A program made the position numbers and the translations under genes. From contig SIAQ01000034.1 of the NCBI GenBank assembly GCA_009697105.1, positions 1-44,753 of the forward strand: a stretch of 44,753 nucleotides of DNA, written 5' to 3'. This DNA is from Gemmataceae bacterium (GTDB lineage Bacteria > Planctomycetota > Planctomycetia > Gemmatales > Gemmataceae). Numbering within the stretch: position 1 is the first letter of the stretch; each line of letters starts with the position of its first letter. This document shows, piece after piece, positions 1,519 to 37,695 of this stretch. The notes beneath the pieces were generated by a model. It worked only from the letters and a program-made list of their open reading frames with translations, was not told where the DNA came from and made no database searches.

Positions 1519-2652
1519 ATGCAACGCGTCGCCGTCACTCCCCGGCCCGATTGGCAGAAACGCGTCGAGGCCATCGGGTTCGCCCATCACACCAGTGACG
1601 ACGGCTCACCCTACTGGAACGAGTCGGCTTGTTACCTCTTCACCTCCGCTGAAATCAACGTCCTCGAAGCCGCCACGCTCGAACTCGATAAACTTTGCAT
1701 ACAGGCCGTCGAGCACATCATTCAACACGATCTGTGGGACGAATTTCAGATACCGCCGGCCTACCGCGCCTGGATTCGCCGAAGCTGGGACGAGGAATCG
1801 ATCAGCATCGTCGGGCGGTTCGATCTTCTCTATGACGGCGTGAACCCGCCCAAGCTCGCGGAGTACAATGCCGACACGCCGACGGCACTCATCGAGGCCG
1901 CCATCGCCCAGTGGTTTTGGCTGCAAGATGTGTCGCCCGAATCGGACCAATTCAACTCCCTGCACGAACGGCTGATCGAAGCGTGGAAAGTAGTGAAACG
2001 CGAAATCGATACGCCGGTGGCGTTCCTGGCGACACAGAACCACCTCGAGGATTTCGCGACCGTCACCTACCTGCGCGACGTTGCCGAACAGGCGGGGATA
2101 CGCACGCAGTATCTGCCAATCCAGGCAGTCGGCTGGAACGAAGGCCTCGGTGCGTTTATGGACACACAGGACGAACCGCTCGGATGCGTGTTCAAGTTGT
2201 ATCCGTGGGAATGGATGCTGCGCGAGGAGTTCGGGTCGCACCTGCCGAACGCCGCGACTCGCTGGTTGGAACCGCCGTGGAAGATGCTTATAAGCAACAA
2301 GGCGATTCTGCCGCTGTTGTGGATGCTGAACCCTGGCCATCCGAATCTGCTGCCGGCGTCGTTCGAGTTGATGTCGGGGCGTTGTGTGCGTAAGCCGAAG
2401 CAAGGCCGCGAAGGCGCGAACATGGCAATCCTCGACGGCGGCGGCGTGATTGAATCGACCGATGGCGAGTACACGGATGAACCGGTGATTTATCAACAGT
2501 TCATGCCGCTGCCGCGCTTCGAGGGACAGACGGCGGTGCTGGGAAGCTGGATGATTAACGGCGAAGCGTGCGGCCTGGGCGTGCGCGAAGACGCCGCCAC
2601 GATTACGACGAACCTAAGCCGATTCGTGCCGCATCGGATGCTTCCGTCTTAG
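1519..2652 (+). CDS. Glutathionylspermidine synthase-like ATP-grasp ligase (YgiC/YjfC family)
   Basis: 377 residues from ATG 1519, four bases after the preceding stop; the open frame extends upstream, but that part overlaps the previous gene and is rejected. The N-terminal half carries the pre-ATP-grasp signature (YWNESACYLF, GRFDLLYDG, KLAEYNADTPTALIE) and the C-terminal half the ATP-grasp signature (KPKQGREGANM, YQQFMPLP, and a final ITTNLSRFVPH). This matches the C-terminal synthetase domain of E. coli GspS and the stand-alone YgiC/YjfC proteins, and the amidase domain of GspS is absent. The family forms an amide bond between a peptide or carboxylate and an amine using ATP; the substrates of YgiC/YjfC are not firmly known. 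Its operon partners are two membrane proteins, which suggests work at the envelope. Confidence 0.9.
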   Translation: MQRVAVTPRPDWQKRVEAIGFAHHTSDDGSPYWNESACYLFTSAEINVLEAATLELDKLCIQAVEHIIQHDLWDEFQIPPAYRAWIRRSWDEESISIVGRFDLLYDGVNPPKLAEYNADTPTALIEAAIAQWFWLQDVSPESDQFNSLHERLIEAWKVVKREIDTPVAFLATQNHLEDFATVTYLRDVAEQAGIRTQYLPIQAVGWNEGLGAFMDTQDEPLGCVFKLYPWEWMLREEFGSHLPNAATRWLEPPWKMLISNKAILPLLWMLNPGHPNLLPASFELMSGRCVRKPKQGREGANMAILDGGGVIESTDGEYTDEPVIYQQFMPLPRFEGQTAVLGSWMINGEACGLGVREDAATITTNLSRFVPHRMLPS

Positions 2653-2879
2653 CCCTTGGTCCTTCGTTGTTAGCGCTTCGTTTACTCGGGACGGAGTCTC
2701 ATCGCTATGGCGATTGCCACCGACCACGGACAAAATCAAGATGGCCAAGGTGCAGAGCCAGCGCACACTTTCAGCGGTCCTTCACTCGAGTGCGAGCGTG
2801 GCGGATGCGCGCAAGCAAAATATGCTGCAATGTGGTAAAATTGGCTCAGGCGTTGAAAAACTCGACGGGGATTACGCAC

Positions 2880-3170
2880 ATGTATCGACCGCTGGGCATA
2901 TTCTGGTTCGCCGTCGGCGTCGGGTTGCTGACGTTGCAGTGGACGATGCCGACGATGGCCGAATATCCAATGATGGTGAATCGTGTGCCACTCGGCGCGC
3001 TCGCACTGACGTTGTCGTTTTACAATACGATCCGGTGGCGCATGTTAGCCGCACGAATCGCGGCACGCGAGCAGGAACACGCCGAGCAGGTGAAGCAGCG
3101 ATTCGGCCACGGACCGATCGACCCGAACTTCGATTTCTCTGAACCGCCGAAGGATACGAAACCGAAATAA
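2880..3170 (+). CDS. Small two-helix membrane protein, hypothetical
   Basis: 96 residues from ATG 2880. Two hydrophobic stretches, about residues 5-22 (LGIFWFAVGVGLLTLQW) and 36-50 (RVPLGALALTLSFYN), are followed by a charged cytosolic tail (AREQEHAEQVKQRF) ending in a Pro/Asp-rich segment. The frame is open for a further 100 codons upstream, but that part has no protein-like character, so the ATG immediately before the hydrophobic region is preferred. No family recognised. It lies between the ATP-grasp operon and the LOG-family gene. Confidence 0.55.
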   Translation: MYRPLGIFWFAVGVGLLTLQWTMPTMAEYPMMVNRVPLGALALTLSFYNTIRWRMLAARIAAREQEHAEQVKQRFGHGPIDPNFDFSEPPKDTKPK

Positions 3171-3260
3171 TATCGCTATTCCGCATCTGCCGCTTGGGGC
3201 TGGATCACTAGACCATCCGACGCGAACGCTAAGCCGCAAGCGGGAATCAGGAACGCTCTC

Positions 3261-4292
3261 ATGGACCAAACACCGAACAAGTCGTTTCACCCGATTCACG
3301 ATTATACGCCACAAACGCCAGAGGAAGACGCACGCAGTTATAGCATCGAGCACTACGTGCAACAGATCCACGAAACCACCAACAAACTGCTGCAAGATAA
3401 CGCTAACCGTGGCGATGTCAAGTTGCTCAGCGTCGCCTTGCGTGAATTACGTTATTGTTTCAAAATCTTCGCGAATTACCGCCACCGGCCTCAGGTGACG
3501 GTGTTCGGCTCGGCGCGGACGCCGCCGGAGGATCCATCGTTTCAGCAGTGCGTCGAATTCTCTCGCCGAATGGCCGAGGCGGGATACATGGTAATTACGG
3601 GCGGGGGCAACGGGATCATGGAAGCCGGCCACATCGGCGCAGGCCGCGAGAATAGCATCGGCCTCAATATCCTCCTGCCGTTCGAGCAGCACGCCAACAC
3701 CGTCATCCGCGATGATCCGAAGTTGATGCACCTGCGCTACTTCTTCACGCGTAAACTTCTCTTCGTCAAAGAGTGCGAGGCCGTTGCCCTTTTCCCCGGC
3801 GGGTTCGGCACACTCGACGAAGGCTTCGAGGTGCTCACGCTAATCCAGACCGGCAAGAGCCATCTCTTCCCGATCGTCATGGTCGATGCGCCCGGCAGCG
3901 ACTATTGGCATCACTTCCTGCGCTTCACCAAGGAAGTGCTACTAAGCCGAAAGCTCATCGCCGAGGCCGACCTGCATCTGTTCAAGGTGACGTATTCGGT
4001 CGATGAAGCCGTGGCTGAGGTGCTGAATTTTTACCGCGTGTATCACAGCATGCGTTACGTTCGTGGTGATCTGGTGTTTCGTCTGCATCGCGCGATTAGC
4101 GAGGCGACCTTGGAGCGAGTTCGCGTTGACTTCGCCGACATCATCAAGGGCGGCACGTTCGAGTTGACCAACGCGCTGCCTGAGGAATTCGAGGAGGTGG
4201 CGCTGGCGGTGCTGCCAAGGCTCAAGTTTCGCTTCGATCGGCACAAGCTTGGGCGGCTGCGGCAGCTGATCGACGCCGTGAATCAGGACTGA
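3261..4292 (+). CDS. LOG family protein (TIGR00730-like nucleotide hydrolase)
   Basis: 343 residues. The Rossmann core contains VTVFGSAR (about 73-80), GGGNGIMEAGHIGA and PGGFGTLDEGFE (about residue 179), the PGGxGTxxE signature of the LOG (Lonely Guy) family, whose members release adenine or cytokinin-type bases from nucleoside 5'-monophosphates, and of related nucleotide hydrolases. It is longer than the minimal enzyme (about 190 residues): about 70 residues lie ahead of the core and about 90 follow it, as in the long PpnN-like and planctomycete versions. The Arg and Glu of the active site are present. A half copy of a dispersed palindrome (3222-3245) sits directly upstream. Confidence 0.85.
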   Translation: MDQTPNKSFHPIHDYTPQTPEEDARSYSIEHYVQQIHETTNKLLQDNANRGDVKLLSVALRELRYCFKIFANYRHRPQVTVFGSARTPPEDPSFQQCVEFSRRMAEAGYMVITGGGNGIMEAGHIGAGRENSIGLNILLPFEQHANTVIRDDPKLMHLRYFFTRKLLFVKECEAVALFPGGFGTLDEGFEVLTLIQTGKSHLFPIVMVDAPGSDYWHHFLRFTKEVLLSRKLIAEADLHLFKVTYSVDEAVAEVLNFYRVYHSMRYVRGDLVFRLHRAISEATLERVRVDFADIIKGGTFELTNALPEEFEEVALAVLPRLKFRFDRHKLGRLRQLIDAVNQD

Positions 4293-4335
4293 AATTGAAG
4301 ATGTAACGGTTTGACTGAGAGCTGAGAGCTGATAA

Positions 4336-5232
4336 CTAAGCCTGCATCAGCCGATGCAGATACAAATGCACCGGGCCGAGGTTGCCGCCGTAGTTGCCTG
4401 CGGTGATGGCGACGACGCCGGGTTGGCAAGCGGCGCGGATGCCGACGCGTGTTGCTTGTTCCACCGCTGGCTGATCGATGCCATCGATGACGAGTTCGTA
4501 GACGGCATTGACGTTGTCGGGCAGCTTGGATGCGACCGAGCCACGCAGAGTCGGGCAGTAGGCGTCGTTGGTGCTGGCGCGGAGTTTCTTGTACTTGCTG
4601 CCGACTTTGCTGCCGCTGCGCACGATCCCGCCGGGGAACGGCAAGATGACGCCAGGCACCCCGCCGATGGCGAGCACGGCGGCCTCGGCGGCGGCGAGAC
4701 CAGCCTTCTGCGTCTCGGCGAGAATCAAAAAGTTCCCGCCGCCGACGCCTTTGACTGTACCAAACACGTCCTCGCAGACAAATTCACCGTCCATCACGGG
4801 CAAACGCCAATAGCGCCGATCGTTGAGTTTTTTGCTGATCTGATGACCATCGCCGAAGAAACGCAGGTTTCCACCGACGCGAATCGTTTTGCCTTTGACG
4901 AGGGATAAGCCGTTATAGCACGCCGTTGTCGGGCAGGTGAGGACGCACTGTCCCACTCGGCTAATGACCGCTTTTTGCAGGGCGTCGCGGTTGAAGGCGA
5001 ACATTAGGACGCTGACGCCTGGCCGATCGTCGATCGTCTCGTCGGGCCTGAGCGTGCGTTCGATGGCCGCCTCGACATCGCAGCCGATGACCGACGACGC
5101 ATACCCGGTGACGACTTGCCCAGTCGTGCGCGCCCAACCAGGCGTTTCCGCCGTGATGACGAGCCGAGCGGCGGTCATCGGGAACGCCTCGGCGAAGGTG
5201 TCTTCGATCAGAACGTTGTTGATGGTTAGCAA
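4336..5232 (-). CDS. fhcD: Formylmethanofuran--tetrahydromethanopterin N-formyltransferase (FhcD/Ftr)
   Basis: 298 residues, the usual length of Ftr (about 297-300). It transfers a formyl group between methanofuran and tetrahydromethanopterin (H4MPT), a cytosolic C1 step used by methanogens, methylotrophs and many Planctomycetes for formaldehyde oxidation. Sequence support: the opening INNVLIEDTFAEAFPM, TAETPGWARTT, VIGCDVEA, NRDALQKAVISRVGQCVLTC, GNLRFFGDGHQ, DVFGTVKGVGGGNF, LPFPGGIVRSGSKVGS, and the C-terminal AGNYGGNLGPVHLYLH, all typical of the family. It stands alone here: no fhcA/B/C, mch or mtdB gene is in the window. ribF follows it on the same strand. Confidence 0.93.
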   Translation of the reverse strand: MLTINNVLIEDTFAEAFPMTAARLVITAETPGWARTTGQVVTGYASSVIGCDVEAAIERTLRPDETIDDRPGVSVLMFAFNRDALQKAVISRVGQCVLTCPTTACYNGLSLVKGKTIRVGGNLRFFGDGHQISKKLNDRRYWRLPVMDGEFVCEDVFGTVKGVGGGNFLILAETQKAGLAAAEAAVLAIGGVPGVILPFPGGIVRSGSKVGSKYKKLRASTNDAYCPTLRGSVASKLPDNVNAVYELVIDGIDQPAVEQATRVGIRAACQPGVVAITAGNYGGNLGPVHLYLHRLMQA

Positions 5233-5289
5233 GGCTGGACTCGTCAGTGGTCAGTGGTCAGTAGCACTTTGTACTTTGTATTTGGCAGA

Positions 5290-6216
5290 TCAAGACAACG
5301 CCATGCGAACCGATTCGAGGTCGTGGCTTATCTGTTCCTTGAGTGTATCGATGCTTGCGAACGTTTTCGTATCGCGAATTTTCTTAACGAAAGTCGCTGA
5401 CAGTAATTTTCCGTACAGGTCGCCGGTAAAGCCTAGCAGGTGCACCTCGGTTTTGCGGGCGATTTCGCCGAAGGTCGGGTTCGGGCCGACGTTGGCGGCG
5501 GCGGGCCAGGTTGTGCCGTCTACGGTCGCACGCAGTGCATAAACGCCATCGCCTGGCAGCAGCGTCGGCACGTCGTGCAGGTTCGCAGTGGGGAAGCCGA
5601 TCGTCGTGCCGCGCTTTTGGCCAGCCTCAACCGTCCCGGTAATAACGTATTCCCGACCCAGCAGGGCGGCGACCACGTCCACGCGCCCCGCCAAAAGTTC
5701 CGTGCGTACACGACTGCTCGAAACGACGAGGCCTTGCACCTCGCGTGGAGGCAGCAGCGTTAGTCGTAGTTTCGCCTCCGTGCACAATTGCTTGAGTACA
5801 TCGATGGTGCCCTCGCGGTTTCGACCGAAACCGAAGTTGAACCCTTCGACAAGAGCGGCGGCTCGCAGCTGCGTTAGAATGATTCGCTGGAAGAACTCTC
5901 GTGCACTTAGTTGCAACAGCTCGGGGCTTGTACGAAGGATCAGCACATGATCCGCGCCGTGGCGTTGTAATAATGACGCGCGGTCGACTAGCGTGTTGAG
6001 CGATGGCCCGACTTTGTCCGGTCGCAACAGGAGCGACGGGTGCGGATCGAGCGTGACGGCGACTGCGGGGCCAGGGATGGCTTGGGCCTGGCGCGACGCT
6101 TCTGCCAATAGCGCCTGGTGGCCGAGATGAACGCCATCGAAGTTGCCGATGGTCAGCACCCCGCCCAGGCAGGTATCGGGGAAGGCATCATCAATGGAAC
6201 AGGTGAAGGTGGCCAT
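5290..6216 (-). CDS. ribF: Bifunctional riboflavin kinase / FAD synthetase
   Basis: 308 residues from the ATG at 6216; a start 19 codons upstream is possible, but that extension lies in a dispersed repeat (6230-6306) and is not protein-like. The N-terminal adenylyltransferase domain carries TIGNFDGVHLGHQALL (about residues 21-36), and the C-terminal flavokinase domain carries GTTIGFPTANL and the motif VGPNPTFG. The enzyme phosphorylates riboflavin to FMN and adenylates it to FAD. Length and domain order match the standard bacterial protein (about 300-315 residues). Confidence 0.93.
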   Translation of the reverse strand: MATFTCSIDDAFPDTCLGGVLTIGNFDGVHLGHQALLAEASRQAQAIPGPAVAVTLDPHPSLLLRPDKVGPSLNTLVDRASLLQRHGADHVLILRTSPELLQLSAREFFQRIILTQLRAAALVEGFNFGFGRNREGTIDVLKQLCTEAKLRLTLLPPREVQGLVVSSSRVRTELLAGRVDVVAALLGREYVITGTVEAGQKRGTTIGFPTANLHDVPTLLPGDGVYALRATVDGTTWPAAANVGPNPTFGEIARKTEVHLLGFTGDLYGKLLSATFVKKIRDTKTFASIDTLKEQISHDLESVRMALS

Positions 6217-6229
6217 GGTGACGAGAGGA

Positions 6230-6306
6230 TTAACCACAGAGGCACAGAGAAAACAATCTGTTAATACCGCCAAACTTGTCTCTATTCTCCGTGTCTCTGC
6301 GGTTAA
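6230..6306. repeat. Inverted repeat of the ACCACAGAGGCACAGAG type (copy 1)
   Basis: Left arm TTAACCACAGAGGCACAGAG at 6230-6249 and an imperfect complement at 6286-6306 (CCGTGTCTCTGCGGTTAA). It lies between the ribF start and the tpx stop. Related copies occur at 39370-39469 and 43320-43430, plus a half copy at 39085-39102. Confidence 0.7.
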
Positions 6307-6317
6307 GTTGTTATTGT

Positions 6318-6836
6318 TCAGCCTGCGACAGCTTTGAGGGCGGCGATGGCGTTGTCGTAGTTCGGGTGGATGCCGACTTCGGGGACGTATTCGCAGTAGG
6401 TGATCTTGTTGTTTGCATCGACGACGAAGATCGCGCGCGACAGCAGCGGAATCACCAGGCCCTGAATGAGCACGCCGAAGTTTTTGCCAAACGATCCATT
6501 GTGCAGGTCGGAGAGGTTCTGCAGGTTCGTCACGTTCTCAGCCGTGCAGAATCGCTTCTGCGCGAACGGCATGTCGAGGCTGACCGTATAACATGCGACC
6601 TTGTCCTTCATGCCGGCGACGGCTTCGTCGAACTTCTTCGTCTGCGCGCTGCAGACGCCGGTATCGAGCGATGGCACAACGCTGAACAGACGCGCCTTCT
6701 TCGGCGTGCCGGCGAGCGTGATGGCTTCAAGCGTCGGGGCGGCGCAGGCGAAATCGGGGGCGGCGTCGCCAGCTTTGAGTTGCGGGCCGACCAACGGAAA
6801 CATCTTGTCTTTGAACTTCACTTGGCGTTCGGACAT
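6318..6836 (-). CDS. tpx: Thiol peroxidase (atypical 2-Cys peroxiredoxin)
   Basis: 172 residues, typical of Tpx. The peroxidatic Cys is in VVPSLDTGVC (C62), and the resolving Cys is C97 in FAQKRFCTAENV, the Tpx-specific spacing. The enzyme reduces H2O2 and organic peroxides using thioredoxin in the cytosol. The start at 6836 is supported by AGGAG eight bases upstream. It is divergently transcribed from ahpC-ahpD, with 236 bp between the starts, so a shared oxidative-stress control region is plausible, though I could not pick out a defined operator. Confidence 0.95.
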   Translation of the reverse strand: MSERQVKFKDKMFPLVGPQLKAGDAAPDFACAAPTLEAITLAGTPKKARLFSVVPSLDTGVCSAQTKKFDEAVAGMKDKVACYTVSLDMPFAQKRFCTAENVTNLQNLSDLHNGSFGKNFGVLIQGLVIPLLSRAIFVVDANNKITYCEYVPEVGIHPNYDNAIAALKAVAG

Positions 6837-7072
6837 TGTCTCGTACTCCTATTATTTGCTCGGTATTTTCCAAATCTTCGTAGTAACATTTTTCCGTTCG
6901 CGAGGGTAGCCGCGAACGCTAAACGAAGAAACATAAGGCTTAAACTACGGCCATGTCCCTTTATCGTCCAACCTTAACAAACCGGCGACTTGATCTAACG
7001 TTGCCCGTGTCTAAAATAGCACAGAAGAACAACCATTACGAAACCACGTTTTTCCACGAAAGGGCTATTTTC

Positions 7073-10644: not shown

Positions 10645-10725
10645 GTTTAGCCGCTCGCCTTTGGCGAGCGCGAACTTAGTGTTGTCCAGCACCAGTTCCC
10701 GCTCGCCAAAGGCGAGCGGCTAAAT
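10645..10725. repeat. Palindrome, GTTTAGCCGCTCGCC family (copy 1)
   Basis: The left part GTTTAGCCGCTCGCC...GGCGAGCG is itself a small hairpin, and the right part is its complement ending CGGCTAAA, around a variable spacer of about 25 nt. Five copies of this composite hairpin occur in the window (15232, 29918, 33481, 37616). Confidence 0.85.
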
Positions 10726-15231: not shown

Positions 15232-15313
15232 GTTTAGCCGCTCGCCTTGGGCGAGCGCGTCGTGTGCTTCGTTTCAACCAGGTTCCGCGCTCGCCAAAGT
15301 CGAGCGGCTAAAC
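15232..15313. repeat. Palindrome, GTTTAGCCGCTCGCC family (copy 2)
   Basis: Left part GTTTAGCCGCTCGCC at 15232-15246, right part ending GAGCGGCTAAAC at 15313. The right half forms the last 14 codons and the stop of the PHP gene (15274-15315) on the minus strand. Confidence 0.85.
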
Positions 15314-27700: not shown

Positions 27701-29284
27701 TTACGTCATCCTATCCGATTGTTTGCGGAACGGGGAGGAAAATGTGCTGGTATTTTCTGATTGCGTTGAAACAAGTCCGACCACGGCATCGATGACCCCG
27801 TCGCTCGTCGCCTCTGTCGCTTCGGCGGTGATTGGAAAACCGAGCGTGCGGATGTCGGCCGATGTCACGCTGCTGATACTGACGAGCTTGATCTCGCCCA
27901 AATGTATGCGCTGCTGACAGGTTTCATCGAGCTGACTCAGGAATCCCTTGGCGATGTTGGAACTCGTCAGTGTGACGAACTCGATCTCGCCGCGGCGTAG
28001 GGCGTTCATCACCTCTTCGTCGGTTTCGATGACATCGATCTGCGAATAAACCGCGATTTGCTCGACCGTACAAACCACGCTAAGTTGCTGCCTCAGTACG
28101 TCACGACCACGATCCGCGCGGGCCAAGAGCACGCGCTGGCCTGGCCGGATTTTCGTGAGCAGTGCGGCGGCCAAATCCTCCGACTGATACCGCGTCGGCA
28201 CGAGGTCCGGTGTCAAGCGGTACTCGCGCAACGTGTCCGCTGTGCGCGGGCCGATCGTCGCAAGCTGCAAATGGCCCAGGGCACGCAGATCTCTGCCGGT
28301 TTGCTGAAGGCGGCCGAGAAACGCATGCACCCCATTAGCGCTGGTAAACACTAGCCAATCGTAGGCGAGCAGATTGTGAATGGCGTCATCGACGGGTTTC
28401 CAGTTGGCTGGCTCGCGCACCTCGACGATGGGTAAGAGGAACGGCACGGCGCCGAGATCGATCAAACGGTCGATCATGCCGCGCGCCTGATGCCTTGGCC
28501 GAGTGACCAAGACTCGACGGCCGAACAGCGGGCGACGTTCAAACCAGGCGAGGTCGTCGCGCCGGGCGACGACGGGACCGACGATGATGAGCGCCGGCGC
28601 GGTGAATCCTTCCTCGCGCGTCCGGCGCGGCAGGTCGGCGAGCGTCGTCACGAGCGTCCGCTGGATGCCGAGCGTGGCGTTCTGCACGACGGCTGTCGGT
28701 GTCGCGGGATCCTTGCCTTCGGAAAGAAGTGAGGCGACGATTCTTTCGATGCGTGACATACCCATGTAAAGCACGAGCGTACCGGGAAAACGCGCCAGGG
28801 CATGCCAATCGAGCATGCTTTCGGGTTTGTTGGGATTTTCATGACCGGTAACAAAGGCGACAGCGCTGGCACAGGCGCGATGCGTTAGCGAGATACCTGC
28901 GAACGCGGCAGCGCCGAGCGCGGCGGTGACGCCCGGCACGATCTCGAATGGGATGCCGGCTTTCGCCAAAACCTCGGCCTCTTCCGCACCGCGACCGAAG
29001 ATACACGGATCGCCGCCTTTGAGCCTCACGACGCGTTTGCCCGCCAGGGCGGCGGCGATCATCGTCTCGTGAATCGGCACAATACGTTCGTCATGGCTTG
29101 GCCCCAGTTCCGCGACGCAGCGTCTCTCGGCACGCGCCGGCGCGAAATCCAACAACCACGGCGAAACGAGCTTGTCGTACAGCACCAAGTCAGCCTGGCG
29201 TAGACACTCCGCAGCGCGCAGCGTCAACAACCCCGGATAACCAGGGCCGGCGCCGACCAAATATACTGTTGGGATCTTTGGCAT
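27701..29284 (-). CDS. cobA-hemD: Fused uroporphyrinogen-III C-methyltransferase / uroporphyrinogen-III synthase (CobA-HemD)
   Basis: 527 residues. The N-terminal 240 residues are SUMT: VYLVGAGPGYPGLLTLRAAE, ADLVLYDKLVSP, VRLKGGDPCIFGRGAEEAE, GIPFEIVPGVTAALGAAAFA, PGTLVLYMGM and a QNATLGIQRT block. From about residue 255 a HemD domain follows (FGRRVLVTRPRHQARGM, YDWLVFTSANGVHAFL, ATIGPRTADTL, VTLTSSNIAKGF). HemD closes hydroxymethylbilane to uroporphyrinogen III, and SUMT methylates it towards precorrin-2 for siroheme or B12. Such fusions are known in Firmicutes and Planctomycetes. No other haem gene is in the window. Confidence 0.95.
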   Translation of the reverse strand: MPKIPTVYLVGAGPGYPGLLTLRAAECLRQADLVLYDKLVSPWLLDFAPARAERRCVAELGPSHDERIVPIHETMIAAALAGKRVVRLKGGDPCIFGRGAEEAEVLAKAGIPFEIVPGVTAALGAAAFAGISLTHRACASAVAFVTGHENPNKPESMLDWHALARFPGTLVLYMGMSRIERIVASLLSEGKDPATPTAVVQNATLGIQRTLVTTLADLPRRTREEGFTAPALIIVGPVVARRDDLAWFERRPLFGRRVLVTRPRHQARGMIDRLIDLGAVPFLLPIVEVREPANWKPVDDAIHNLLAYDWLVFTSANGVHAFLGRLQQTGRDLRALGHLQLATIGPRTADTLREYRLTPDLVPTRYQSEDLAAALLTKIRPGQRVLLARADRGRDVLRQQLSVVCTVEQIAVYSQIDVIETDEEVMNALRRGEIEFVTLTSSNIAKGFLSQLDETCQQRIHLGEIKLVSISSVTSADIRTLGFPITAEATEATSDGVIDAVVGLVSTQSENTSTFSSPFRKQSDRMT

Positions 29285-29533: not shown

Positions 29534-29923
29534 ATGGTCAGCGGTGAGATTCAAATTCGCGTTCGCTATGCCGAGACGGATCGCATGGGGCTACTGCACC
29601 ATGCCAACTATCTGGTATACTTTGAACAGGGGCGCACCGAGTTGCTCCGCGACCAGGGCTTTACGTATCGCGATATCGAGGACCAGGGGTTCTACCTCGT
29701 TCTGACGAAAATCCAAGTCCGCTACAAAAGCCCCGCGTACTACGACGACCTCCTGACTCTGCGAACGACCGTCGTGCGGACGACGCTGGTCAAGATCGAA
29801 CACAGCTATGAATTGATGCGCGACGGCGTCGTCCTTGCCGATGGCGAATCGACGCTCGGGTGCGTCGATGCCAATGGGAAAATTCAAGTGTTGCCGGAAA
29901 GCCTCGGCGGCAAGCCCGTTTAG
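29534..29923 (+). CDS. ybgC: YbgC-like acyl-CoA thioesterase (4HBT fold)
   Basis: 129 residues from ATG 29534, with AAGGA five bases upstream; the longer upstream frame is not protein-like. Hot-dog fold 4HBT: VRYAETDRMGLLHHANYLVY contains the catalytic Asp16 of the D-x-x-G-x-x-H-x-x-xY motif, followed by FEQGRTELLRDQG, VRYKSPAYYDD and VKIEHSYEL. In Proteobacteria ybgC is the first gene of the tol-pal operon; here it also precedes a TolQ/TolR-like pair. The enzyme hydrolyses acyl-CoA thioesters and is linked to phospholipid metabolism. Its TAG stop lies inside a palindrome (29918-30006). Confidence 0.9.
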   Translation: MVSGEIQIRVRYAETDRMGLLHHANYLVYFEQGRTELLRDQGFTYRDIEDQGFYLVLTKIQVRYKSPAYYDDLLTLRTTVVRTTLVKIEHSYELMRDGVVLADGESTLGCVDANGKIQVLPESLGGKPV

Positions 29924-30006
29924 CCGTTCGCTTTTGGCGAGCGCGGACGTGGCGTTTCGATGGAATGGGCATTGCGTTCGCGCTCGCCAAAGGCGACCGG
30001 CTAAAC
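29918..30006. repeat. Palindrome, GTTTAGCCGCTCGCC family (copy 3)
   Basis: Starts GTTTAGCCGTTCGCTTTTGG at 29918 (containing the ybgC stop codon) and ends GGCGACCGGCTAAAC at 30006; more diverged than other copies, with a spacer of about 37 nt. It lies within what seems to be an operon. Confidence 0.8.
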
Positions 30007-30033
30007 CAAAACTTTGGAACAGGAAGCAATATC

Positions 30034-30543
30034 GTGCGTCCACTACTGATTCGCCTGTTCATGCCGATATTACTCTGTTCGCTGCCGAACTTGGCGGCGG
30101 CGCTGGTGCTCATCTGCGTGCCGCGCACCGCTCTCGAATATTTCGCGAAAAATTTCTCGCTGATGGACGCCCTGATCGTTGGCGGTGGGAGCTGTCTGTA
30201 CAGCATGCAAATGGTGCTCTGCTTCAAATCGCTGCGCTGGAACGGCACGAGCTTCGACGACGGGGCGGACCGCTGGCTTATGAACCTCGCTCAGGCAGCG
30301 GAATGGTTCCCGATGCTCGGCCTCATCGGCACGGTCACGGGCATCCTCGAGGCGTTCTCCAAACACGGCGGCACCGGCTCGATCCAGCCTGCTGTCATCG
30401 CCCCGGCCATCACTGCGACTGGCGCCGGGCTGTTCATGGCCCTCATCAATATTCTGCCGAGCTGGGTCGTCATGCTCGGCCGCGACCTGATCCTCCTGAT
30501 GAGCGGCGTCAAACCGCAGCTGCCGGGAGAGCATCACCCATGA
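30034..30543 (+). CDS. TolQ/ExbB/MotA-like proton channel subunit
   Basis: 169 residues from GTG 30034, chosen because AGGAAG lies seven bases upstream; an ATG at 30061 is the alternative. Hydrophobic helices at about 8-28, 43-63, 92-108 and 120-148. The channel-forming motifs are present: WFPMLGLIGTVTGILEAF (91-108) and AVIAPAITATGAGLFMALIN (120-139), the two transmembrane segments that surround the TolR/ExbD helix in Tol, Exb and Mot complexes. It is shorter than TolQ/ExbB (about 220-240) and has little cytosolic loop. The stop overlaps the ATG of the next gene (ATGA). Confidence 0.82.
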   Translation: MRPLLIRLFMPILLCSLPNLAAALVLICVPRTALEYFAKNFSLMDALIVGGGSCLYSMQMVLCFKSLRWNGTSFDDGADRWLMNLAQAAEWFPMLGLIGTVTGILEAFSKHGGTGSIQPAVIAPAITATGAGLFMALINILPSWVVMLGRDLILLMSGVKPQLPGEHHP

Positions 30544-31112
30544 TGCATATGCCTCGCCGAAACGTGACGCGGTTTTTTATCCCGTTGATCGACGTGCTGA
30601 TCCTGCTGTTCTGCATCTTCCTGTTGATGGAGTTCAACAGCGGCGCGGAAGCCGACATGCAGACCGAGAAAGTCGCCGAGCAAACGGAGACGATGGAAGA
30701 CCTGAGCGGGCAGCTCAATCGCCGAATCAAGGAGCTGCAAAAGTTCGAGGAGCTTCGCCCACAGCTTGTGGAACTGGAGAAGCTGCGCGAGGAGGTCGAT
30801 CGCCTGCGTAATCAGGCCCAGCGGAATATGCAGCAGCAAGCGTACGTTCGGATCATCGATATCAACCCGAAAGACGGATCGATATCGTTTTTCGACGATA
30901 GAAACCCGAAGAATTCGATCGTGCAGGTCGCGAATATCAAATCCGCTCAGGGCCTGATCGATCGGCACAAAGCGGAAGCGGGCAAGCGCGAAATGTACTA
31001 CTACTTCATGTACCCACGCCAGCGCACGATCTATCCGCTGTTCGGGCAGGAGCAGGAATACAAGGTCTGGTTCAAGAACGTCGCGAATTCGCTGGTAAAG
31101 GTGACGCCATGA
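30540..31112 (+). CDS. TolR/ExbD-like protein with coiled coil
   Basis: 190 residues from ATG 30540, overlapping the preceding stop. A single TM (residues 12-30, FFIPLIDVLILLFCIFLLM) contains PLIDV, and the Asp (D18) is the proton-carrying residue conserved in TolR/ExbD. Residues 40-95 form a coiled coil (RIKELQKFEELRPQLVELEK, then LREEVDRLRNQAQRN), which replaces the short linker of TolR. The C-terminal periplasmic part (about 100-190) is beta-rich (YVRIIDINPKDGSISFFDD, YYYFMYPRQRTIYPLFG). Together with the upstream gene it should form a proton-motive-force-driven motor in the inner membrane. Confidence 0.8.
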   Translation: MMHMPRRNVTRFFIPLIDVLILLFCIFLLMEFNSGAEADMQTEKVAEQTETMEDLSGQLNRRIKELQKFEELRPQLVELEKLREEVDRLRNQAQRNMQQQAYVRIIDINPKDGSISFFDDRNPKNSIVQVANIKSAQGLIDRHKAEAGKREMYYYFMYPRQRTIYPLFGQEQEYKVWFKNVANSLVKVTP

Positions 31113-31771
31113 TCTTCGCGCAATCGCTGTTCGATTTCGGTTTGCAGGAAGGAATGCTGTCGATCGTGCGCGCCATCGCGGCGATCGGCGGGGCCATCGT
31201 CGGGTGGTTCGCCGGCGACTTGCTGACACGTCTACTCTACCGTATCTCATTCAAAGGCGCGACGCCCGGATCGCTGCTGCTCGTGGCGAAACTCGGCACC
31301 GCCGCCACGCTTGCCGCCTTGATCTGGGCGTTTCTTCCCATTGGCGGCGGCGGCGGACTCGGCTGGGGACCAGGCAAGGGCGGGCAGCCAGGCAAAGGCT
31401 CAGGCGATGGCGGAGGCAAAGGAACCGGCGCCACCAACGCCGTCAAAACCGATGTCGCCACCAAGGACGAAAAAAAATCCCCTGTCGGTTCCATCAAACT
31501 CGAAGCGATCGAAATCGAAATCATCGACGCCAAACGCTACCAGGACGACGGCAAAGAACGTGTATTTCTCGTCAAACGTACCGAACCCGCATTCGACGAA
31601 GCCGGCCTCGACGACTATCTCAAAACCAACCACACCAAGATCGAAGTCACCCCCGTCCTCACCAGAAACAGCATCGGCATCGGCCGCGACGACAACCCGC
31701 TTAGCAAACTCCTCGCGCTGACCAAGAAATACAACGTGAAAACCCTGCAAACCAAAACGCCAGGAGAGTGA
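31109..31771 (+). CDS. Two-TM membrane protein with Gly-rich linker, unknown family
   Basis: 220 residues; its ATG at 31109 overlaps the previous stop, so it is translationally coupled. TM helices about 16-38 and 53-75 are followed by a Gly/Lys linker (GGGGGLGWGPGKGGQPGKGS at 78-97) and a C-terminal domain (about 120-220) with alternating strands and helices (IEIEIIDAKRYQ, ERVFLVKRTEPAF, NPLSKLLALTKKYNVKTL). The size and topology of that domain recall a second TolR/ExbD periplasmic fold, but I see no diagnostic motif. Not recognised otherwise. Its context gives it a role in the adjoining proton-motor complex. Confidence 0.65.
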   Translation: MIFAQSLFDFGLQEGMLSIVRAIAAIGGAIVGWFAGDLLTRLLYRISFKGATPGSLLLVAKLGTAATLAALIWAFLPIGGGGGLGWGPGKGGQPGKGSGDGGGKGTGATNAVKTDVATKDEKKSPVGSIKLEAIEIEIIDAKRYQDDGKERVFLVKRTEPAFDEAGLDDYLKTNHTKIEVTPVLTRNSIGIGRDDNPLSKLLALTKKYNVKTLQTKTPGE

Positions 31772-31788
31772 CAAGGGACGAGGGCGTC

Positions 31789-31866
31789 GGAGAGTGGCTA
31801 GTGGCTAGCGAAAAAAATCACTGCTCACTCGTCGCTCATCCTTCACCACTAGCCACTAACCACTGA
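31789..31866. repeat. GTGGCTAGTGGCTAG-type inverted repeat
   Basis: AGTGGCTAGTGGCTAG at 31793-31808 and its near-complement CTAGCCACTAACCACTGAC at 31848-31866, in the 102-bp gap between the Gly-linker gene and the GTPase gene. Related in style to 16169-16257. Confidence 0.6.
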
Positions 31867-31873
31867 CAAAGCT

Positions 31874-33472
31874 ATGGCTCTCCCCCGCTTACTTCTGTTT
31901 GGCACGCCCGGCGCGGGTAAAACATCGCTGCTTGGCGCGCTTGCGCAGTCGGCATCCTCCCAGTCGCCAGGATTGAAGGGTGAACTGATCGCGGAAAAAG
32001 GCGATCTCGATGATCTGCGAATAAATACCTATGAGCGCGTGCCGGACGCCACCGACGCTCTCGAAACCTATGACCTTCGGCTTCAGCCGGCCGACCCGAA
32101 GATCGACGCCCTGGCGCGCGCCACTGTAATCGATTGCGGCGGCAGTGAAGCGCTGGAGATGCTGCGCGAGAAAGAGCCGTTCGCCAACGCCCGTGACATG
32201 CGAAAGAGCGTGCTCAATGCCGACGGCGTCGTCGTTGTTGTCGATTCGTCGTTGCCCAGCAAACAGCTGACTGAGGAGCTCCAGCATGTCGCTCGCTGGC
32301 TGACGCAGTTGCGCGCTGTGCGAGGCAAACGCCTGGAAATCGGCGCGTTTCCCGTTTACCTCGTTCTCTCGAAATGTGATCTGTTGGCCAAGAAAGACGA
32401 CACACTCGTCAAATGGCAGCAGCGCGTCGATGAAGGAAAAAAACGCATCGAGGACAAGGTTCGCAAAATGCTCGAACAGCAAGGCGACGCGTTCGGCTCG
32501 CTCAAGCTGGTCATGTTCGCGACGGCGATCCGCAAGCCCTCACTATCCGACCGCCCGGCAAAGACGCCCGAGCCAGTGGGCGTCGCGGAACTATTTCACT
32601 CCAGCCTCAACGCCGCCGTCGATTTCCAGGCACGCCGTCGCGTGTCTGCGGGAAGGTTGCAGAACGTGACGGTCGGCCTGATTGCCGTGGTCGCCGTCTT
32701 TGTGCTCACGCTTGCGGGGTTGTTTGAGTTTCAACCGCCCGAGCGCGACGCCGACTTCGAGCAGCGCATCGCGAAGGTCATGCCCAAGCCAGACGCCACG
32801 CCGGCCCTTCGCCTGCGTGGCACCGCCAAGACGCTTGCCGACAAGCACAAGCGGCTCGAAGAGATCATCGACCGGGCCGAGTTCGAGAAACTGCCGAGCG
32901 GGACGCGCGACGAGGTTCAGAAATATCGCAAGGAATTGGCGGAGTATGCTCACCTCTACAACGACGCGCTGACGCTGCTGAAACCGCCGCACGTTGCGAA
33001 GAATCAGAAGGAACTCGACGAGCAGCTCGCAGATCTGAACAAATTTGCGATACCCAAGGAGCGGGTTCAAGAATGGGACGAAACCGCGCTCGCTCATCGA
33101 GTGAAGCAGTTTCGTTCGGAATACGAATCGCTCGACAAGGCTCTGAAGGCGGAAGAGGGCTGGATACGCGAACGTATCAAGGACAACGAAATACTACGCA
33201 AGCAGGGCATCGCTCTTTTTAGCCGATTGGCTAATGGCGAGAAGGATGCGCCGAAGGAAGTCGAAGCGTGGAACCGCGAATTTCAGAAGCGCATGTCACT
33301 GCCGCCGACGACGATTCGCGACGCGATCGTCAAGGGCGTGGCACGCATGACCTACGAAGACCTCGCTCGTTTTGCGGCCGTGCAAAAGGCGAGCCGCGAT
33401 TGGGAACTGTCGCTGTCGGGCCTACGCAAGACGGCAACGAATTTGGACGACGAGTTGCGCAGGGGGTCGTGA
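31874..33472 (+). CDS. Membrane-anchored GTPase with long periplasmic helical tail
   Basis: 532 residues. An N-terminal P-loop GTPase domain (about 1-250): G1 GTPGAGKT (10-17), G3 DCGG (87-90) and G4 SKCD (166-169, in place of NKxD). One TM segment at 265-284 (VTVGLIAVVAVFVLTLAGLF), then about 245 residues of mostly alpha-helical, charged sequence (EIIDRAEFEKLPSGTRDEVQ, KNQKELDEQLADLNK, FRSEYESLDKALKAEEGWIR). With the GTPase in the cytosol, the tail would be periplasmic. The layout is loosely like TssM/IcmF but far shorter, and no other type VI gene is present. It follows the TolQ/TolR-like operon on the same strand 102 bp on. The function is not known; I infer a GTP-controlled partner of that motor. 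Confidence 0.72.
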   Translation: MALPRLLLFGTPGAGKTSLLGALAQSASSQSPGLKGELIAEKGDLDDLRINTYERVPDATDALETYDLRLQPADPKIDALARATVIDCGGSEALEMLREKEPFANARDMRKSVLNADGVVVVVDSSLPSKQLTEELQHVARWLTQLRAVRGKRLEIGAFPVYLVLSKCDLLAKKDDTLVKWQQRVDEGKKRIEDKVRKMLEQQGDAFGSLKLVMFATAIRKPSLSDRPAKTPEPVGVAELFHSSLNAAVDFQARRRVSAGRLQNVTVGLIAVVAVFVLTLAGLFEFQPPERDADFEQRIAKVMPKPDATPALRLRGTAKTLADKHKRLEEIIDRAEFEKLPSGTRDEVQKYRKELAEYAHLYNDALTLLKPPHVAKNQKELDEQLADLNKFAIPKERVQEWDETALAHRVKQFRSEYESLDKALKAEEGWIRERIKDNEILRKQGIALFSRLANGEKDAPKEVEAWNREFQKRMSLPPTTIRDAIVKGVARMTYEDLARFAAVQKASRDWELSLSGLRKTATNLDDELRRGS

Positions 33473-33480
33473 GATTCCTT

Positions 33481-33564
33481 GTTTAGCCGCTCGCCTTTGG
33501 CGAGCGCGTGTGTGTACGTCGAGTTGCGCCACGTCCGCGCTCGCCAAAGGCGAGCGGCTAAACG
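33481..33564. repeat. Palindrome, GTTTAGCCGCTCGCC family (copy 4)
   Basis: Arms starting GTTTAGCCGCTCGCC (33481) and ending GAGCGGCTAAAC (33564), between two convergent genes; the strand-neutral position suits a bidirectional terminator-like role. Confidence 0.85.
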
Positions 33565-37615: not shown

Positions 37616-37695
37616 GTTTAGCCGCTCGCCTTTGGCGAGCGCGAAATTGGGACGCGCGACACACCGCGAGCGCGCCAGAGGCGAGCGGCTAAACG
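37616..37695. repeat. Palindrome, GTTTAGCCGCTCGCC family (copy 5)
   Basis: GTTTAGCCGCTCGCC at 37616 and GAGGCGAGCGGCTAAACG ending at 37695, between the divergent adaptor and enolase genes. Confidence 0.85.

Follow-up and report, generated by a model that had tools for sequence, protein, structure and literature searches.

A probable TolQ/TolR-type proton motor with a linked membrane GTPase in the planctomycete order Gemmatales

Introduction

What is the task of a tolQ-like and a tolR-like gene that are followed by a gene for a membrane-anchored GTPase, in bacteria where TolB is not found? Such a cluster lies on the plus strand at 29534-33472 of a 44,753-nucleotide stretch of DNA from a Gemmataceae bacterium (the window; contig SIAQ01000034.1, our C97, of assembly GCA_009697105.1, a genome of 5.4 Mb and 92% completeness). 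It consists of ybgC, TolQ-like, TolR-like, glycine-linker (Gly-linker) and GTPase genes in that order, and all five genes of the envelope cluster described by an earlier reading made from the sequence alone (the sequence-only reading) were found in place. We conclude that the cluster probably encodes a TolQ/TolR-type proton motor that carries two TolR-type domains and to which the GTPase is functionally tied. Proton motors of 5:2 composition drive flagella, iron uptake, outer-membrane constriction, gliding and phage defence. More envelope systems run by such motors still await discovery, according to passages of a 2025 force-transducer study (PMC12204202). If our proposal is true, one of them combines a clustered GTPase, two unlike predicted TolR-type domains and a minimal cytoplasmic channel loop. 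The features are as follows.

29534..29923, plus strand: ybgC-type acyl-CoA thioesterase, cluster gene 1 (ATG start, 129 amino acids; TIGR00051, 4HBT_2)
30034..30543, plus strand: TolQ-like channel subunit (GTG start, 169 amino acids; MotA_ExbB)
30540..30543, plus strand: ATGA start/stop overlap of tolQ and tolR, read from the sequence
30540..31112, plus strand: TolR-like putative rotor subunit (190 amino acids; transmembrane helix with Asp18, coiled-coil stalk, predicted TolR-fold C-domain)
31109..31112, plus strand: ATGA start/stop overlap of tolR and gly, read from the sequence
31109..31771, plus strand: Gly-linker protein (220 amino acids; two transmembrane helices, Gly-rich tether, predicted TolR/ExbD-fold C-domain at 127-220)
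31874..33472, plus strand: membrane-anchored GTPase (532 amino acids; MMR_HSR1, motifs G1, G3 and G4, transmembrane helix by hydropathy)

The channel and its TolR-like partner

The TolQ-like protein belongs to the MotA/TolQ/ExbB proton channel superfamily, with 39.6 bits to MotA_ExbB (PF01618; gathering threshold 22.9). It is neither TolQ proper (TIGR02796, 30 bits versus an equivalog cut-off of 221) nor ExbB proper (TIGR02797, 18.1 versus 206.2; TIGR02805, 20.9 versus 135.35), and its profile gave no match to solved structures at E 0.001. GTG at 30034 is the best start because relatives share the beginning VRR.LI. Hydrophobic stretches at residues 11-29 and 46-64 are followed by a loop of about 23 residues and then by pore helices around GLIGTVTGI and AITATGAGL. 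Four transmembrane (TM) helices are predicted, the loop being cytoplasmic and lying between helices 2 and 3. At the chosen hydropathy threshold three are found, and the pore helix at about 88-108 was taken from the alignment. In excerpts of PMC12505986, the cytoplasmic domains of non-flagellar relatives are described as two helices (ExbB) or three (TolQ); the loop found here would hardly have space for one. The sequence-only reading had already called the subunit very short. In an alignment of 73 rows (the window and 72 of 74 named loci), Thr100, Thr127, Thr129, Glu90 and Pro93 are invariant. We take the three Thr residues to line the pore, as inferred from TolQ and ExbB.

The TolR-like protein has one TM helix at residues 12-30 with Asp18, the putative proton carrier, which is conserved in 72 of the 73 rows, the remaining row being a gap. 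A helix predicted to run unbroken from residue 13 to 100 comprises the TM segment and a coiled coil; both the membrane Asp and the coiled coil had been claimed from the letters. The score to the ExbD/TolR family (PF02472) is below cut-off (18.3 versus a gathering threshold of 25.4), and 25 of 61 aligned members match that family at E 0.1 or better. A profile search against solved structures found MotB at E 0.008. For the C-terminal domain the best match is TolR (5by4), and a TolR fold is predicted from the model.

Distribution and gene order

The cluster is a feature of a single planctomycete order, Gemmatales. All four membrane genes were detected in 71 of 102 Gemmatales genomes, while 14 had none and 17 had some. 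Counted singly with alignment profiles, the GTPase was present in 75 genomes, the TolQ-like protein in 86, the TolR-like in 83 and the Gly-linker in 81 (E limits 1e-5, 1e-10, 1e-5 and 1e-3, respectively; partial matches counted). Presence was all-or-none in 85 of the 102 genomes, more than chance would give: 2000 shuffles, kinship being ignored, averaged 41 such genomes and never exceeded 53. Some of the 14 genomes with none are incomplete, yet one of them (G029) is 100% complete. At family level the GTPase search matched 30 of 41 genomes. In a phylum sample of 294 genomes, with three candidates scored per genome, the GTPase was found solely in the window's own genome. In the class, the TolQ-like protein was found in 50 of 198 genomes, the sole one from another order being G502 (E 1.5e-18, over part of the length).

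Named loci carry the titles Gemmataceae, Gemmatales, Zavarzinella, Gemmata, Limnoglobus or Fimbriiglobus, or are loosely titled as planctomycete metagenome-assembled genomes (MAGs); a few are titled Singulisphaera, Isosphaera, Candidatus Kuenenia or Bacteroidales. Limnoglobus roseus PX52, Zavarzinella formosa DSM 19928 and Gemmata sp. IIL30 are named carriers. The closest named record (L055, at 97% for the TolQ-like protein) bears the title Singulisphaera sp. GP187 and groups with Gemmataceae on the tree; it is likely a loosely named MAG.

The order ybgC-tolQ-tolR-gly-gtp, scored for genes on the tolQ strand, is broken in none of 74 named loci. The end genes vary, in part because contigs end: 37 loci have all five genes, 9 have tolQ-tolR-gly-gtp, 17 have ybgC-tolQ-tolR-gly, 8 have ybgC-tolQ-tolR, 2 have ybgC-tolQ and 1 has tolQ-tolR. 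In 64 of the 74 loci ybgC precedes tolQ and shares its strand, the order ybgC-tolQ-tolR occurs in 62 as well as in the window, and gly comes directly after tolR in 59 of the 67 loci that have room for it. The fixed order and the co-occurrence that were to be looked for among planctomycetes are both present within this order. Ten loci were scored as gly without an adjacent GTPase. Two of these (L082 and L106) hold a protein without a P-loop; in two others (L086 and L110) a GTPase is present, its open reading frame starting upstream; this leaves six. Locus scans with GTPase alignment A1 or with a single GTPase gave no usable locus.

The GTPase

The GTPase has the motifs GTPGAGKT (G1) at residue 10, DCGG (G3) at 87 and SKCD (G4) at 166, one TM helix by hydropathy at 265-283 and a tail of 249 residues, in agreement with the motifs, single TM and tail of about 245 residues read earlier. 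By these motifs and its match to MMR_HSR1 (24.3 bits, cut-off 21.9), it is a putative P-loop GTPase. The GTPase domain is placed in the cytoplasm because an Arg-rich stretch precedes the TM helix, and the tail is predicted to be periplasmic. The match to the double-GTPase family DO-GTPase2 (PF19993) is below cut-off for the window protein (20.9 versus a gathering threshold of 27), and 15 of 26 family members match that model at E 0.01. The IcmF-related_N match is also below cut-off (21.0 versus 25) and is shared by 1 of 26 members; kinship to the type VI protein IcmF, for which the match is weak, was rejected. Among at least 120 listed homologs, public names are generic (GTPase or NTPase) or hypothetical. 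Relatives are mostly longer than 800 residues; by family alignment and lengths, the window protein is a C-terminally shorter form. This short form, seen in the window's clade, is one change on the tree, the tail having lost its C-terminal part once.

The GTPase occurs together with the motor genes. Of 75 genomes with the GTPase, 73 also have the TolQ-like protein (Fisher p 3e-8, kinship ignored), and the exceptions G335 and G355 are 86% and 69% complete. The two genes are within 6 kb on one strand in 50 of the 73 genomes having both. In the other 23 they are on different contigs or distant, and contig breaks may explain some of these cases. A real split is seen in G362, a single contig of 9.4 Mb, in which tolQ and the GTPase gene are 6.2 Mb apart along the record, or about 3.2 Mb the other way if the molecule is circular. 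The joint at which the cluster breaks varies: L047, L048 and L051 have gly-gtp without tolQR nearby, and L064, L072, L074 and L076 have tolQR-gly without gtp. Since the genes are kept in one genome after the operon has split, they probably work together. Separation of the GTPase from the TolQ/TolR-like genes in most relatives, which would have spoken against a joint machine, was not what we found: 50 of 73 keep the pair close and the other 23 keep both genes.

Does GTP itself matter? Several findings weigh against a GTP-gated motor, as proposed by the sequence-only reading, and against a GTPase that belongs to it. The P-loop is absent in 9 of 46 profile-matched relatives, in which TM helix and tail are kept, or in 11 of 48 if the proteins of L082 and L106 are counted; these two have no profile match and were taken as homologs by position and TM helix. 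The losses need three to four changes on a tree made by a quick search, with several long branches and with the loci lacking tolR (2 of 74) excluded. The GTPase is also the least tightly held of the four (75 of 102 genomes versus 81 to 86 for the others), is distant or on another contig in the 23 genomes noted above, and is separated from gly by 102 nucleotides in the window. Its nearest solved relatives bear the name putative signal recognition particle protein (E 7e-4). We take these to reflect kinship to SR-beta. The proteins without a P-loop that stand beside an intact motor are those of L063, L068, L082, L092, L097, L106, L107, L108, L114, L127 and L128.

Because the P-loop was lost in 9 of 46 relatives, a GTP switch is confined at most to the lineages that keep it, the window's included. 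One explanation of the losses, which we regard as rather unlikely, is that the protein is mainly structural, the TM helix and periplasmic tail doing the work and the GTPase domain being a dispensable assembly switch. TM helix and tail without a P-loop are what it predicts, but the P-loop is intact in 37 of 46 profile-matched relatives (L110 among them; 37 of 48 with the two added proteins) and in the window, the invariant columns of alignment A1 (built mostly of P-loop-bearing members) include P-loop and G4 positions, and the tail in its turn lost its C-terminal part once, in the clade of the window. It is also unlikely that the cluster is a stripped-down, lineage-specific Tol-type motor in which the GTPase is an operon passenger that makes no contact and has a task of its own, such as the targeting of membrane proteins. 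The looser retention, the distant copies, the gap before the gene and the signal recognition particle names would suit a passenger; its near-constant company with the TolQ-like protein would not, the two exceptions being incomplete genomes, and the TM helix and tail remain directly 3' of gly even after loss of the GTP site. We keep the functionally tied GTPase as the preferred reading. That GTP state controls the motor in the window's lineage is a closer call, on which we lean slightly to the negative side.

A second predicted TolR-type domain

The Gly-linker protein falls in no Pfam or NCBIfam family. Hydropathy gives two TM helices at residues 16-34 and 56-74. The sequence-only reading had put a two-TM Gly-linker protein where tolA, tolB or pal would be expected; the two TM helices were found, and the protein appears to be more than a stand-in, for it is predicted to end in a TolR/ExbD-type periplasmic domain that is new here. 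TolR (5by4) is the best match for this C-domain model (127-220), and the profiles of the TolR-like and Gly-linker proteins match one another over 80 columns. Foldseek alone gave no match at E 0.001 for either model, and the best hit of the Gly-linker profile among solved structures was at E 0.011, none being TolR or ExbD. We consider it quite unlikely that the Gly-linker protein lacks a TolR/ExbD domain and that the match reflects a common small alpha/beta arrangement. As both proteins carry a predicted TolR/ExbD-type C-domain, the motor likely has two of them, carried by the coiled-coil stalk and by the Gly tether, respectively. A "split TolR", with the pore helix in one protein and the periplasmic domain in the other, was dropped because the TolR-like protein is also predicted to have a TolR-type domain.

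Missing partners and other identities

The cluster is neither Tol-Pal nor ExbBD-TonB. TolB_N matched none of 41 family genomes, with E. coli, Caulobacter and Bacteroides controls positive. TonB_C matched 5 of the 41 and had no match in the window's genome (92% complete); the TolA model PF06519 was not run. The window's genome has a separate ExbB-ExbD-ExbD set (G000:C55), which makes the window cluster a second, different set. The C55 set resembles the paired-TolR-like sets of the Planctomycetes-Verrucomicrobia-Chlamydiae (PVC) group described with vWA transducers in passages of PMC12204202. That the window genes are just an ExbB/ExbD pair whose TonB is encoded elsewhere, which would have spoken against the sequence-only reading, was rejected on both counts, the missing TonB_C and the separate set. 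A phage origin of the cluster was also rejected. A Zorya-type anti-phage device (a ZorAB proton motor with effector) is very improbable and was rejected. In its favor, the TolR-like protein matches ZorB weakly (15.9 bits) and the GTPase matches mads_8 (30.9 bits); against it, none of the five proteins matches ZorA, ZorC, ZorD or ZorE (E 0.01), and the gene order is constant across the whole bacterial order.

Tubulin/FtsZ matched a single genome of the 41 from the family, and E. coli was one of the controls that scored positive. The lone match is partial (G001:C1:584108-584320, in a 1157-residue frame, 23 bits) and is over the cut-off only together with neighboring matches.

Proposed mechanism

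From these proteins we infer proton flow, a 5:2 make-up, force, GTP control and envelope work. The TolR-like subunits would form the axle of a 5:2 complex (TolQ5-TolR2-type), and the coiled coil of each, about 70 residues long, would act as a stalk that holds its TolR-type domain away from the membrane. The Gly-linker protein would sit beside the pore by its two TM helices, in the place that TolA or TonB occupies in other systems, and its tethered TolR-type domain may pair with the axle's domain or receive its force. In E. coli TolQRA, the periplasmic TolR dimer pairs with a TolA loop and shifts to a peptidoglycan-coupling form, as stated in excerpts of PMC12583513. Here the stalk's domain may have the Gly-linker protein as its partner, the tether giving reach. 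The GTPase may make GTP-dependent contact with the cytoplasmic side of the channel, which has hardly any loop, and so permit proton flow or recruit the complex; it would switch or position the motor from the cytoplasm while its tail acts in the periplasm.

Relatives lack FtsZ and divide by budding, according to parts of PMC5147048, and the work done may be envelope constriction or outer-membrane upkeep in such cells. In the boldest form of the proposal, Gemmatales replaced Tol-Pal, and perhaps part of the role of FtsZ, by a GTP-switched proton motor: the GTPase would mark the bud neck or another envelope site and open a TolQ5-TolR2 motor nearly devoid of a cytoplasmic domain, and the two unlike TolR domains, the first on a rotating stalk and the second on the Gly tether, would pull the outer membrane inwards. 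We hold this scenario to be quite unlikely.

Gene joints, repeats and neighboring genes

ATGA overlaps had been read as coupling three genes; they join tolQ to tolR (30540) and tolR to gly (31109). The two outer joints are gaps: 110 nucleotides with a repeat pair inside between ybgC and tolQ, and the 102 nucleotides between gly and the GTPase gene. The latter (31772-31873) contains both GTGGCTAGTGGCTAG and CCACTAGCCACTAACCACT; folded as 31768-31876, it outdoes most of its shuffles (z -2.08, with 7 of 200 as good). The ybgC product scores 93.9 bits to TIGR00051 (NCBIfam, YbgC/FadM thioesterases; cut-off 68.7) and 60.9 bits to 4HBT_2 (Pfam).

A paired palindromic repeat around CGCTCGCCAAAGGCGAGCGGCTAAAC (10 matches versus 0 expected) resembles repetitive extragenic palindromes (REP-like). 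It has five copies in the window, at 10645-10725, 15232-15313, 29918-30006, 33481-33563 and 37616-37694, each made of two inverted halves 27 to 37 bases apart. Two of the five flank the stretch from tolQ to the GTPase gene.

A gene of the signal peptidase I type is found no more than 6 kb upstream of ybgC in 26 of 37 complete loci; it was confirmed by Pfam in L117 (region 1605-7071) and L060. LepA precedes it in L117 and, by eye, also in L084. In the window its place is taken by an opposite-strand cobA-hemD fusion gene (27701-29284, minus strand; uroporphyrinogen methyltransferase and uroporphyrinogen-III synthase, TP_methylase + HEM4).

Comparison with known systems

Among the papers listed by searches of the open-licence literature, none described a TolQ/TolR-type motor combined with a GTPase in Gemmatales. 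The known systems each share part of this plan, the closest being Tol-Pal, the vWA motors and the Agl motor with MglA. In TssM/IcmF a cytoplasmic NTPase domain is followed by a TM helix and a periplasmic part. The GTPase has the same layout and the weak Pfam match given above (21.0 bits, cut-off 25); it differs in that 1 of 26 members matches and no further type VI secretion gene is among the five.

MglA is a soluble Ras-like GTPase that works with AglRQS. Like the motor proposed here, AglRQS has a GTPase as partner. It is the TolQR/MotAB-class motor of Myxococcus gliding, according to passages of PMC13104615. The cluster GTPase differs in having its own TM helix and tail and in being encoded beside the motor genes.

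MotA/MotB resembles the cluster in its four channel TM helices (predicted here) and in Glu-x-x-Pro (EWFP) at the start of the pore helix. An E-P motif in the pore helix is typical of flagellar stators in excerpts of PMC12505986, and its identity with EWFP is putative. A loop of about 23 residues stands in place of the torque-generating domain of MotA, and the partner ends in a predicted TolR-type domain.

The vWA force-transducer motors of PVC bacteria also have a TolQ-like channel with two unlike TolR-like partners, and the transducer proposed for them, in parts of PMC12204202, likewise consists of a TM helix, a disordered linker and a globular end. No vWA model matched the Gly-linker protein or the GTPase, the SHLS motif was not noticed by eye in the Gly-linker alignment, and the cluster's second TolR-type protein has two TM helices and no conserved pore Asp. 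The cluster also has a GTPase, a term that PMC12204202 never uses.

Tol-Pal shares with the cluster the order of ybgC, tolQ-like and tolR-like genes, the conserved Thr and Asp residues and a TolR-type periplasmic domain (predicted here). It differs in its partners, TolB being unmatched in 41 of 41 family genomes and a TonB-type C-domain in 36 of 41. The cluster in turn adds to the Tol-Pal plan a GTPase and a second, Gly-tethered domain of predicted TolR type, and its channel is nearly without a cytoplasmic loop.

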